Shown here: piece by piece, positions 4,052 to 6,864 of the stretch
Layout of the letters: each line of letters begins with the position of its first letter
Position numbering within the stretch: the stretch's first letter is position 1
Assembly (NCBI RefSeq): GCF_000526515.1
Contig: NZ_JAGF01000001.1
Span: forward strand, 3,472,001 to 3,536,000
Length of the DNA: 64,000 bases
Direction of reading: 5' to 3'
From: Cellulomonas sp. KRMCY2
Lineage (GTDB): Bacteria > Actinomycetota > Actinomycetes > Actinomycetales > Cellulomonadaceae
Program-made: the position numbers and the translations under genes
The notes under the pieces: model-generated
Told to the model about the DNA's origin: nothing
Databases searched by the model: none
What the model saw: only the letters and a program-made list of their open reading frames with translations

Positions 4052-4522
4052 TCAGGAACCGGTGACGAGGTCCCCGCCGGCCGAGGTCCACGCCCCGACG
4101 CCACCGTCGAGGTGCGCGAGGGATGTCATGCCGGCTGAGCTCATGACGTCCATCGCCTGGGCCGAGCGGTTGCCCGACCGGCAGTACAGGGCGTAGGTGA
4201 CGTCGGGGTCGAGCGCTGCGATCGCGGTGGCGAAGTCCGGGGCGGAGACGTCCAGGTTGAGGGCCCCGTCCAGGTGACCCTCGGCGTACTCCTGCGGGGT
4301 CCGCACGTCCACGACGACGACGCCGTCGGTCGCGACGAGGTCGGCGAAGGCAGCGGCGTCGAGCGTCTGGGTGCTCGCCTCGCCGTCGGCCGCGGACCCG
4401 ACGGTCGCGCCGTCCTGCTCCTGCGGAGCACATGCGGTCACGCCCATGACGAGGGTGGCCGCGAGCAGCAGGCCGGCCAGGGACGCGCGTCGCGCGGAAC
4501 GGTTCAGGGTGAGTGTCGTCAT
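4052..4522 (-). CDS. rhodanese-like lipoprotein
   Basis: A 156-residue exported sulfurtransferase. Residues 1-31 form a lipoprotein signal ending in a VTAC lipobox (Cys31), so it is probably anchored outside the membrane. A single rhodanese domain (about 53-150) carries the persulfide-forming Cys114 in YCRSGNRS. No ribosome binding site precedes the ATG. Instead a TATAGT hexamer lies 6 bases upstream, suggesting a leaderless transcript. A G-tract palindrome of the CsoR/CstR operator type overlaps that promoter. It follows genes for DsrE2, TusE and an SQR-like enzyme, so a role in sulfane sulfur handling is likely. The physiological substrate is unknown. Confidence 0.88.
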   Translation of the reverse strand: MTTLTLNRSARRASLAGLLLAATLVMGVTACAPQEQDGATVGSAADGEASTQTLDAAAFADLVATDGVVVVDVRTPQEYAEGHLDGALNLDVSAPDFATAIAALDPDVTYALYCRSGNRSAQAMDVMSSAGMTSLAHLDGGVGAWTSAGGDLVTGS

Positions 4523-4531
4523 GGGCCGACT

Positions 4532-4571
4532 ATACCCCAGGGGGTATGCGCCCTCGCATACCCCCTGGGGT
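4532..4571. promoter_or_regulatory. paired CsoR/CstR-type operator in a long inverted repeat
   Basis: The site ATACCCCAGGGGGTAT (4532-4547) is followed by a near-copy on the other strand, ATACCCCCTGGGGT (4558-4571). Together 4534-4550 and 4555-4571 form a perfect 17-base inverted repeat around CCCT. Such G-tract palindromes flanked by ATA/TAT are the known operators of CsoR-family repressors (copper CsoR, persulfide CstR). The right part overlaps the TATAGT promoter of the rhodanese gene. The hairpin could also end transcripts arriving from the DsrE2 gene. The sulfur context favours a CstR-like regulator, but none is encoded in the window. Confidence 0.72.
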
Positions 4572-4590
4572 CAGCCCGCGGTCGTCCCGG

Positions 4591-5100
4591 TCAGATGAAG
4601 AGCATCTGGGCGCCGGCGGTGAGCTCGATGAAGTCGGTGGCGCTGATGATGCCCTCGACCTCCGAGTACAGGTCGGTGTCGGTGAGCTTGTTCATGTCGG
4701 CGCTGAGCCGGCACGCCCACAGGTGCCCGCCGGCCCCGACGATCTGCTCGAGGAACTCGGGGATCTCGGGGACCCCGAGGTCGGCGATCGACTTCTTCAT
4801 CTGCTTGGTCGCCATCCCGGTGATGCCCGGCATCGGCGTCAGGCCCATCGGCATGTGCGTGGCGGTGTTGCCGACCGGGGTGAACTTGAGGTCGTTCATC
4901 CGGGACTTGGTGATCATGTCGAGGCCCCAGAACGTGAAGAAGATGTGGGTCTCGACGCCCTCGCCGAGCGCGGCGTTGCCGAGGATGAGCCCCGGGTAGG
5001 CCATGTCGAGGTTGCCCTTGGAGCAGATGATCGCGAGCTTGCGGCCCTCGTTCGCGTCGTCGTCGAAGGACGGGACGAGCGGGGCTGGGGATGTGGTCAC
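4591..5100 (-). CDS. DsrE/DsrF/DrsH-like (DsrE2) sulfur-carrier protein
   Basis: This 169-residue protein matches the DsrE2 branch of the DsrE/F/H fold. It has KLAIICSKGNLDMAYPGLIL near residues 21-40, FFTFWGLDM at 54-62 and the conserved Cys130 in LWACRLS. Family members bind sulfane sulfur on cysteine and pass it to TusA or DsrC-type partners in the cytoplasm. Cys26 is a second candidate sulfur-binding residue. It sits 31 bases after the TusE/DsrC-like gene and before the rhodanese, so it is probably the middle carrier of a relay. No catalytic DsrAB or Hdr-like partner is seen in the window. Confidence 0.86.
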   Translation of the reverse strand: MTTSPAPLVPSFDDDANEGRKLAIICSKGNLDMAYPGLILGNAALGEGVETHIFFTFWGLDMITKSRMNDLKFTPVGNTATHMPMGLTPMPGITGMATKQMKKSIADLGVPEIPEFLEQIVGAGGHLWACRLSADMNKLTDTDLYSEVEGIISATDFIELTAGAQMLFI

Positions 5101-5131
5101 GATGGTGTTCCTCTCGTTGCGGACGGCATCG

Positions 5132-5446
5132 TCAGACGCAGCCGCGCGGCTTGGGCAGACCGGCGATGTAGGCCATCTTCTTGGCCGGCTTCTTCGGGAA
5201 GAGCGCGAACTGCTCCTTGGTGGACACGCCGCCGACCGCCTGGACCCGGCGGGTGGTCGCCGTCTCGCCCTGGGTGGCGAAGTCCGCGCGAAGGAAGCGC
5301 AGCACCTTCCAGTGGTCGTCGGTGAGCTCGATCCCGATGGCGGCGGCCAGGCCGGGCGCCATCGCCTCGTCCCACTCGGCGGGGTCGGTGAGGAACCCCT
5401 CCTCGTTGACGTGGACCTCGCGTCCGTCGATCGTGGTCACAGGCAT
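5132..5446 (-). CDS. TusE/DsrC/DsvC-family sulfur relay protein
   Basis: A 104-residue cytoplasmic carrier. It ends in GLPKPRGCV, with the penultimate Cys103 that carries sulfur in this family (CysA). The second cysteine of true dissimilatory DsrC, 11 residues earlier, is Ala92 here, so the protein resembles TusE more than DsrC. It lies 3 bases after the stop of the SQR-like gene and before DsrE2, clearly in one operon. The tusBCD and tRNA 2-thiolation genes are not nearby, so the acceptor of its sulfur is unknown. Confidence 0.88.
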   Translation of the reverse strand: MPVTTIDGREVHVNEEGFLTDPAEWDEAMAPGLAAAIGIELTDDHWKVLRFLRADFATQGETATTRRVQAVGGVSTKEQFALFPKKPAKKMAYIAGLPKPRGCV

Positions 5447-5449
5447 GGT

Positions 5450-6724
5450 TCAGTCCTCTCTCAGGTCGTTCGCGGGCGCGGTCGTGGCGAGGGCCGCGGG
5501 CCGCTTCTTGCCGGTCATGGACATGTGCACCGGGACGGGGAGCCGCCTGCCGGGCAGGAGCAGGTTCCAGTAGATCCAGCGGAAGGCGAGCTTGCCCAGG
5601 TGGTTGATCCGGCTCTCGGCCAGGAGCCGCATGGGCCCGACGACGGGCAGCGGGTACATCCCGGGCAGGGGCTCGGTGTCGTAGTTGAAGTCGATCAGCA
5701 GCGCCTTGCCGTTGCCGGACTCGATGAAGCAGTTGGCGTGCCCGTCGAAGCTCTCCGGCATCGGCCGGCCGGCGACGTGCGCCAGGAAGTTCGGCACGAA
5801 GAGGTCGACCGCGAAGTGCGCGACCGAGCCGGCCTTCGAGGCGGGGGCGTCGCTCGCGTCGCCGACGGCGAAGATCGTGTCGTGCGCCTTGGAGATCAGG
5901 GTGTGCTTGTCGACCGGCACGTAGTTGAGCTCGTCGCCCAGCCCCGAGCGGGCGATGAAGTCGGCACCCATGTTGACCGGGATGGTCACCAGGAGGTCGA
6001 ACGGCACCTCGCGCTCGTCGAAGGAGGTCAGCATGCCCGCGTCGGCGTCGATGCTCTCGACGACGAAGTCCGGCTCGATCGTGATGTGCCGTCCCTCGAG
6101 CATCCCGCCGAGGTACTGCGAGGACACCGGCTTGGTGAAGGCGCCCGGCAGCGGGGTCACGTACGTGATGTCGACCTTGTTGCGGATCCCGCGCTTGGTG
6201 AAGAACGCGTCCGCGAGGAACGTGAACTCGAGGGGTGCGACGGGGCACTTGATCGGCATCTCGGCGACGTGCACCACCAGGCGGCCGCCGGGCCAGGTCG
6301 CCAGCTTGGCGGCGAGGGCGTTGGCGCCCGCGTAGGTGAAGAACTCGTGCACCGACCCGCCGAGGCCCTCGGCCATCCCGGGAGTCTCCTCGGGCCGCGG
6401 CGTCGTACCCGTCGCGATGACCAGGTAGTCGTAGTCGAGGACGGCACCGTCCGACAGGAGGACCTGCTTCTTGTCGGCATCGACCCGCTCGACCGTCGAG
6501 ACCACGAGGTCGACGCCCTTGGCGATCGTCGGCTTGCGGGGGCGCACGACGTCGCGCGGCCGGTACGTCCCGAACGGCAGGAACAGGAAGCCGGGCTGGT
6601 AGTAGTGCGTGACCTCGGGGTCGACGATCGTGATCGACCAGTCCTGCCGGCCGAGGCGAGGACGAAGCTTGTTGGCGACCATCGTCCCGGCCGTCCCTGC
6701 CCCGAGCACTACGAGTCGTCTCAT
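5450..6724 (-). CDS. FAD-dependent sulfide:quinone oxidoreductase-like protein
   Basis: A 424-residue flavoprotein with the FAD-binding GAGTAG at residues 8-13, a second dinucleotide-type segment (ATGTTPR near 104-110) and the FAD-contacting FAVGDASD near 285-292. It has only two cysteines, Cys160 in IKCPVAP and Cys332 in HANCFIE. This spacing recalls the redox pair of sulfide:quinone oxidoreductases. It would oxidise sulfide or a persulfide and reduce quinone at the membrane. The frame is open to 6877, but AGGAG precedes the ATG at 6724 with good spacing and MRRLVVLGAG is the usual N-terminus. The ATG at 6727 is the alternative. First gene of the sulfur operon; the substrate is inferred. Confidence 0.84.
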   Translation of the reverse strand: MRRLVVLGAGTAGTMVANKLRPRLGRQDWSITIVDPEVTHYYQPGFLFLPFGTYRPRDVVRPRKPTIAKGVDLVVSTVERVDADKKQVLLSDGAVLDYDYLVIATGTTPRPEETPGMAEGLGGSVHEFFTYAGANALAAKLATWPGGRLVVHVAEMPIKCPVAPLEFTFLADAFFTKRGIRNKVDITYVTPLPGAFTKPVSSQYLGGMLEGRHITIEPDFVVESIDADAGMLTSFDEREVPFDLLVTIPVNMGADFIARSGLGDELNYVPVDKHTLISKAHDTIFAVGDASDAPASKAGSVAHFAVDLFVPNFLAHVAGRPMPESFDGHANCFIESGNGKALLIDFNYDTEPLPGMYPLPVVGPMRLLAESRINHLGKLAFRWIYWNLLLPGRRLPVPVHMSMTGKKRPAALATTAPANDLRED

Positions 6725-6848
6725 CATCTGCTCCTGCTCTGCTCCTGCGACGGCGGACCTCCGTGAGGACACCGCGCGCGGGCGACGTCCTCGTGGCCCG
6801 TATGTCGACAGTATGGCGCGCGCGCCTCGCCCGCAGGGACGAAAGTCC

Positions 6849-6864
6849 ATACCGCGGGGGGTAT
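6849..6864. promoter_or_regulatory. CsoR/CstR-type operator upstream of the SQR-like gene
   Basis: ATACCGCGGGGGGTAT is a close relative of the paired operator at 4532-4571, with the same ATA/TAT ends and G tract. It lies about 125 bases upstream of the SQR-like start, where the promoter of the sulfur operon is expected. On the minus strand TATGGACT at its edge could serve as the -10 element. Two sites of one type at both starts of a four-gene sulfur cluster suggest one regulon. Confidence 0.65.

Follow-up and report, generated by a model that had tools for sequence, protein, structure and literature searches.

A conserved SQR-TusE-DsrE2 gene unit in Cellulomonas sp. KRMCY2, a probable CstR-repressed module for sulfide oxidation and persulfide relay

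Genes and features of the locus

The locus described here occupies positions 4052-6864 of the window, a 64,000-nt stretch of the genome of Cellulomonas sp. KRMCY2 (genome label G000). It comprises four genes, all on the minus strand, for a sulfide:quinone oxidoreductase (SQR), a TusE/DsrC-like carrier, a DsrE2-like carrier and an exported rhodanese. An earlier note on this DNA had read them as a four-gene sulfane-sulfur relay under a CsoR/CstR-type operator, and family-model matches bore out the presence of each gene. The conserved order also stood, but the unit proved to consist of three genes, sqr-tusE-dsrE2, with the rhodanese gene separate and rarely linked to it. The matching palindromes claimed at both transcription starts lie at 6849-6864 and 4532-4547; the inverted repeat at 4534-4571 and the separate operator of the rhodanese had been missed. 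The features are as follows.

5450..6727, minus strand: sqr, type III-like sulfide:quinone oxidoreductase with a C161/C333 pair (NF049943, predicted structure, human SQOR alignment)
5132..5446, minus strand: tusE/dsrC-like one-cysteine sulfur carrier, penultimate Cys present, Ala at the CysB position (TIGR03342, PF04358, DsrC-structure alignment)
4591..5100, minus strand: divergent DsrE2-like carrier with C26 and C130 (PF13686, 15-row alignment)
4052..4522, minus strand: exported lipoprotein-type rhodanese, probably its own transcription unit (PF00581, translation)
6849..6864, no strand: predicted CstR-type operator ATACC-n6-GGTAT of sqr-tusE-dsrE2 (palindrome scan)
4532..4547, no strand: predicted CstR-type operator of the rhodanese gene (palindrome scan)
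4558..4573, no strand: degenerate second operator copy, 2 mismatches (palindrome scan)
4534..4571, minus strand: perfect 17-bp inverted repeat with a 4-nt loop, formed from both operator copies, a possible terminator of the sqr operon (folding z -5.86)
4529..4534, minus strand: putative -10 box TATAGT overlapping the operator, 6 nt 5' of the rhodanese ATG, suggesting a leaderless start (sequence reading)

Counted over the two strands, the palindrome gave six matches, at three places; 100 shuffled sequences averaged 0.76 matches and never reached six.

Conservation and distribution of the three-gene unit

SQR, TusE and DsrE2 form a conserved three-gene unit. Among 149 genomes of the host's order, a DsrC/TusE match was found in 15 (13 genera), and an SQR of at least 423 bits in the identical 15, the next-best SQR match scoring 245 bits. 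Because NF049943 at E values up to 0.001 matches 134 of the 149 genomes through weak flavoprotein matches, the co-occurrence count was restricted to the 423-bit level. Thirteen of the 15 SQRs exceed the model cut-off, one is split over contigs (G093) and one is partial (G029). The chance of identical gene sets is about 7e-21 by genome and 6e-14 by genus if independence is assumed, values that are optimistic given shared descent. All 14 other carriers keep the SQR-TusE-DsrE2 order; in G079 the locus is divided between two contigs, and in G023 the SQR is broken into two frames.

A wider genome scan returned at least 589 relatives, of which the best 80 loci were analysed; 79 of these have the same order and the remaining one ends at a contig edge 68 bp past the SQR, so the claim that the order is conserved in relatives holds in both samples. 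Among 396 genomes sampled from the phylum, 27 outside family f41 have both the SQR and the DsrC gene, and the two are adjacent in 27/27, with 34-817 bp between the profile matches. By record title, four of the best 80 loci are non-actinobacterial and show the same order, namely those of Anaerolinea thermolimosa (an isolate) and of three metagenome-assembled genomes (MAGs) labelled Thermoflexales, Chloroflexi (a 3.3-kb contig) and Opitutaceae, although MAG taxon labels can be wrong. Pairwise distances computed for the three proteins are correlated across 80 rows (79 loci and the window; L038, which lacks TusE and DsrE2 at a contig end, was excluded from this and from the quick tree used below), with r of 0.47, 0.55 and 0.67 and 0/2000 permutations each. 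On this ground the three genes seem to travel together.

The absence of DsrAB asserted in the earlier note was upheld at the level of DsrA. DsrA exceeded its cut-off in 0/39 module genomes (many weak matches, the best at 50 bits), against 3/3 f41 controls, and stayed below it in the window genome with a weak match of 44 bits; a DsrAB-linked DsrC was rejected on this result. In the window genome PF01077 matched a two-domain reductase of 595 aa and a single domain of a 929-aa frame. Hdr-like genes were probed by PF02754 only, with 5 matches at 3 places. TusA was rejected as a unit member, one TusA reference being unmatched in the best 80 loci.

The quinone oxidoreductase and the two carriers

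The window SQR matches NF049943 (NCBI type III SQR, selenoprotein subtype) with 625 bits against a cut-off of 525. Its predicted structure (54 sequences, mean predicted local distance difference test score 90.9) has human SQOR as its closest PDB matches at a template modelling score of 0.84-0.89, and rows 1-19 of the Foldseek PDB search are all SQRs. The cysteine pair that the earlier note numbered 160/332, counting from the second ATG, is C161/C333 from the first. In human SQOR it aligns with the cysteines of KC and SC, the catalytic pair of that enzyme. Both columns are invariant in a 54-row alignment consisting of the window, 6 genome-region sequences and 47 of 71 stop-free matches; the 71 are those of 80 SQR matches that remained once 9 interrupted by a stop had been set aside.

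At the HxxU site the window SQR has a cysteine (HANC) in place of the selenocysteine of the NF049943 subtype. In family f41 of the phylum sample, seven over-cut-off SQR genes contain an in-frame TGA. Six of them (L116-L121) were examined, the exception being G346, which has two TGA. In 6/6 the aligned part contains a single stop, and this is a TGA precisely at position 333. A TGA at this position fits the HxxU motif listed for NF049943 (PMC13188914). A cysteine at whose position relatives appear to use selenocysteine very likely has a redox function. The three f41 genomes checked for DsrA (G167, G195 and G207) were all positive, and two of them are examined TGA cases.

The TusE/DsrC protein matches the TusE/DsrC/DsvC family model TIGR03342 with 77.6 bits against a cut-off of 53.5, and PF04358 with 106.9 bits; among structures, those of DsrC score higher (67 bits) than PDB 7syb, an entry titled simply 'Sulfurtransferase' (31 bits). 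Its penultimate cysteine (CysA) is kept in a GCV or GCI terminus in 79/79 scanned loci, and C103 is invariant in 15 rows. CysB, which in DsrC sensu stricto lies eleven residues N-terminal to CysA, is replaced by Ala in the window protein, a replacement that has been reported in organisms lacking DsrAB (PMC3397948). In Allochromatium vinosum sulfur goes from DsrE Cys78 to the penultimate Cys111 of DsrC, and Cys100 (CysB) is dispensable (PMC3397948). The DsrE2 protein reaches 101.8 bits with PF13686 (DrsE_2; gathering score 25), with C130 invariant in 15 rows and C26 present in 14/15.

Operator, regulator and regulon

The csoR/cstR homologue that the earlier note proposed to look for was located. 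The window genome has three CsoR-family genes, two of which encode a C..H..C set; we interpret the neighbours of one as CopZ/Cu-ATPase genes and the neighbour of the other as a gene for a YHS protein. The third encodes C..G..C without the copper-ligand His and lies 3' of a rhodanese gene whose upstream region carries an n6 operator; judged by its sequence, it is a CstR-type regulator. Exact ATACC-n6-GGTAT sites number 11 in this genome, against 0 for the reversed pattern, and 9/11 precede sulfur or thiol genes:

rhodanese-cstR (one site)
flavoprotein-rhodanese of the CoA-disulfide-reductase type (one site)
two thioredoxins, one Pfam-scanned and the other named by likeness (two sites)
827-aa flavoprotein disulfide reductase-rhodanese-TusA-DsrE2 fusion, L007 6898-9381 (one site)
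38-aa Cys-rich peptide, L007 10779-10892 (one site)
rhodanese plus metallo-beta-lactamase-rhodanese (persulfide-dioxygenase type), with TauE/SafE downstream (one site)
SQR operon (one site)
exported rhodanese (one site)

Sequence or domain content is the basis on which we assign the putative names persulfide dioxygenase, CoA-disulfide reductase, CopZ, Cu-ATPase and YHS. The earlier note had called the final acceptor unknown, which no longer applies in full, since the same operator precedes rhodanese genes, persulfide-dioxygenase-type genes and the flavoprotein-rhodanese-TusA-DsrE2 fusion, all candidate acceptors. A 76% identical copy of the 38-aa Cys-rich peptide (L005 5817-5930) was seen downstream of an operator-bearing thioredoxin gene, and relatives of it in module loci L050, L058, L068 and L075.

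The spacer length separates two kinds of site. Exactly two ATACC-n7-GGTAT sites exist in the window genome (L008 6186-6202 and L009 5841-5857), both at copper-type CsoR loci, the one 34 bp 5' of the first copper-type csoR and the other about 590 bp 5' of the second, past a YHS-like open reading frame (ORF). Copper CsoR sites are TAC/GTA G-tract palindromes, and the published copper motif TAC-X9-GTA corresponds to n7, which fits the n7 sites at these loci (PMC3902906). The n6 form ATACCn6GGTAT is bound by a CsoR-like regulator of Streptomyces coelicolor that uses Cys37/Cys66 and controls a dioxygenase, a rhodanese and a sulfite transporter (PMC7533328). The earlier note had named as fatal to its proposal a loss of the gene order, or an operon unresponsive to sulfide together with a sole CsoR homologue that binds copper and not these sites; what was found is a kept order, with n7 at the copper-type CsoR loci and n6 at the sulfur genes. 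The n6/n7 rule, drawn from one genome so far, might let actinobacterial copper and persulfide regulons be separated by sequence.

Beyond this genome, the n6 operator with at most one mismatch was found at 26/93 SQR promoters, and every other spacer from 3 to 10 gave 0/93. Each promoter was taken as 250 nt upstream plus the first 20 nt of the SQR, with L029, L034 and L035 outside the 93, and two pairs of upstreams are identical over the last 150 nt (91 distinct). In Nocardioides pocheonensis (L057) the sqr promoter carries the operator with one mismatch. A separate count over 250 nt gave 23/93, against 0.1 in shuffles, 0 for the reversed motif and 0/80 within SQR genes.

The exported rhodanese and variable neighbours

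The rhodanese (PF00581, 65.8 bits) has a signal peptide, the lipobox VTAC and the active-site motif YCRSGN, as read from its translation. A RhdSP-like rhodanese follows the unit in 2 of the best 80 loci (L041 and L080) and in 0/14 other carriers of the order. Considering its own operator, the hairpin that precedes it and this rare linkage, the rhodanese was rejected as part of one four-gene operon. In L041, the nearest relative, a separate 14-bp hairpin lies 5' of the rhodanese operator, and the start of the gene after the rhodanese resembles that of the glycogen-debranching-type gene which adjoins the window rhodanese. A doubled operator arranged as an inverted repeat was found at 1 of 18 operator sites inspected, that of the window only. 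The repeat at 4534-4571, between dsrE2 and the rhodanese gene, could have a dual role as operator and terminator; a consensus scan found no standard sigma-70 promoter and no U-tailed terminator, and the operator hairpin may end the SQR transcript.

Additional genes are found beside the unit in relatives. In 32 loci a gap of 436-1084 bp separates SQR and TusE, where several printed frames are wrong-frame ORFs; the gap gene clusters as one family in 29 loci and is a DUF1641 gene by Pfam in 3/3 tested. The window has no DUF1641 gene between SQR and TusE. ForE of Bacillus subtilis, a DUF1641 protein, is required for coupling formate dehydrogenase to a menaquinone analogue (PMC8808070), and by analogy the DUF1641 protein may help SQR reach the quinone. 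An HTH_17-PocR sensor-regulator gene beside SQR, at loci mostly without the CstR operator, is a candidate sulfide sensor; the name HTH-PocR derives from one Pfam scan (L108). Over the quick tree, which is rooted on one long branch, the HTH gene changes 12 times, the operator 10 times and DUF1641 7 times.

Proposed mechanism and alternative explanations

Taken together, the locus probably encodes a CstR-repressed module that oxidises sulfide and relays persulfide. The computed basis of this reading is gene identity by family models, the conserved order, the operator, the regulator type by sequence and cysteine conservation; from these we infer transcription as one mRNA, sulfide as the substrate, menaquinone as the quinone, the direction from SQR through DsrE2 to TusE, and delivery to the dioxygenase. 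Sulfide would react at Cys161/Cys333 of the SQR, electrons would pass via flavin adenine dinucleotide to menaquinone, and the sulfane sulfur would remain as a cysteine persulfide, to be taken over by Cys130 of DsrE2 and the penultimate Cys103 of TusE. The carriers would then deliver it to members of the same regulon, that is, the rhodaneses, the persulfide-dioxygenase-type enzyme and the flavoprotein-rhodanese-TusA-DsrE2 fusion, and sulfite would exit via TauE/SafE. Persulfide would inactivate CstR and thereby switch the units on.

A more specific proposal is offered tentatively, namely a DsrAB-free use of a DsrC-family protein in which the SQR product passes directly to DsrE2 and a one-cysteine DsrC, and not to a small thiol or free polysulfide. 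On this proposal the same unit extends from Actinobacteria to Chloroflexi and Verrucomicrobia, has been rewired between CstR and HTH-PocR, and belongs to a wider SQR family in which the second SQR cysteine is interchangeable with selenocysteine.

Several observations weigh against the module as proposed. The n6 operator at no more than one mismatch is lacking at 67/93 SQR promoters, and an HTH-PocR gene lies near SQR in 27 of the best 80 loci (between L036 and L112). Control by CstR is therefore not common to all loci. Only L064 has both this gene and an operator match, a doubtful one that lies 226 nt upstream with an irregular centre and is probably due to chance, although it is counted among the 26. 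Comparing the HTH-PocR loci with the operator loci, the module seems to have been placed under at least two regulators, CstR and the HTH-PocR protein. Within the window genome, one n6 site (L006 6582-6597) extends into the 5' end of the tRNA-Gln gene at 6590-6662 and is probably a chance product of the tRNA acceptor stem, and the n6 site at 1587332 has no inspected target. Both carriers fall short of the equivalog cut-offs (63.7 against 191 bits for TusE, PRK11508; 96.7 against 210 bits for DsrE2, NF047629). The pairing has exceptions of two kinds in the non-f41 phylum genomes: lower-scoring SQR relatives (about 255-373 bits) stand without any DsrC match in 16 of them, and in 12 DsrC is matched but this SQR is absent (7 in f43, 2 in f42, G485 and two sub-cut-off cases); in G485 TusE-DsrE2 adjoins an SQR fragment. 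Finally, the sequence does not fix the order of transfer among the carriers, and TusE could serve another acceptor, for example in tRNA thiolation.

The strongest alternative, which we regard as possible if somewhat doubtful, is a plain sulfide detoxifier, whose SQR would release polysulfide or low-molecular persulfide while DsrE2 and TusE buffer or scavenge it without contacting the SQR. Known SQRs hand sulfur to small molecules, and CstR control and the dioxygenase-type gene of the regulon would fit as well. A sulfide-induced SQR-III of Methylacidiphilum, encoded with a TusA homologue and DsrE2, has likewise been read as detoxification (PMC10205796). However, a loose buffer would not require the near-perfect pairing seen between a single SQR type and a single TusE type. 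It appears quite unlikely that the carriers feed biosynthesis, with the SQR as sulfur source for tRNA 2-thiouridine through MnmA in the manner of TusBCDE of Escherichia coli. The family does include TusE, CysB is missing as in TusE, and a TusBCD-TusE-MnmA chain has been described (PMC3397948), but the presence in only 15/149 order genomes means that this is not a housekeeping route, and the CstR-type operator and the unmatched TusA reference also speak against it. A copper-stress role for the operon, with its palindromes serving as sites for a copper CsoR, is very improbable. The operator class and the G-tract palindromes are shared with copper sites (PMC3902906), but copper control of the operon was rejected on spacer length and gene neighbourhood.

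Comparison with known systems

The earlier note supposed a compact actinobacterial relay not yet described. No published description of the SQR-TusE-DsrE2 unit was found in the open-access literature, but judged by record titles the unit also has members in Chloroflexi and Opitutaceae, so it is not confined to Actinobacteria. DsrC/TusE genes occur in DsrAB-free genomes, and the constant SQR partner found here makes the role of one of them testable; if the SQR does transfer its persulfide to a protein, it would not have to produce free polysulfide. The CstR operons of Staphylococcus aureus and others (PMC10318464) are among the closest known systems. They are not known to include a DsrC-family carrier.

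TusBCD/TusE of E. coli resembles the present carriers in lacking CysB and in having a DsrE-family donor, and differs in that the window protein is below the TusE equivalog cut-off and linked to an SQR. DsrEFH/DsrC of A. vinosum shares a DsrE-type donor and a DsrC-type acceptor whose penultimate cysteine is essential; its DsrC has CysB and works with DsrAB (PMC3397948), whereas the Cellulomonas protein has Ala at the CysB position and its genome gives no DsrA match above the cut-off. The S. coelicolor circuit (the CsoR-like SCO0620, PDO, rhodanese and TauE) has the same 16-bp operator and a Cys-pair regulator. Genes of the dioxygenase-rhodanese type and TauE/SafE genes likewise stand at operator-bearing loci in the Cellulomonas genome, and the circuit, as far as the available text describes it, is without SQR, TusE and DsrE2 (PMC7533328).

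The closest published unit found is that of Methylacidiphilum fumariolicum SolV (MFUM_v2_0219-21). Its middle gene is a TusA homologue where the Cellulomonas unit has DsrC/TusE, and a CstR operator is not mentioned in the part of the source available; like the unit described here, it is a three-gene operon of SQR-III, a small carrier and DsrE2, and it is up about 1.7-fold with sulfide (PMC10205796).

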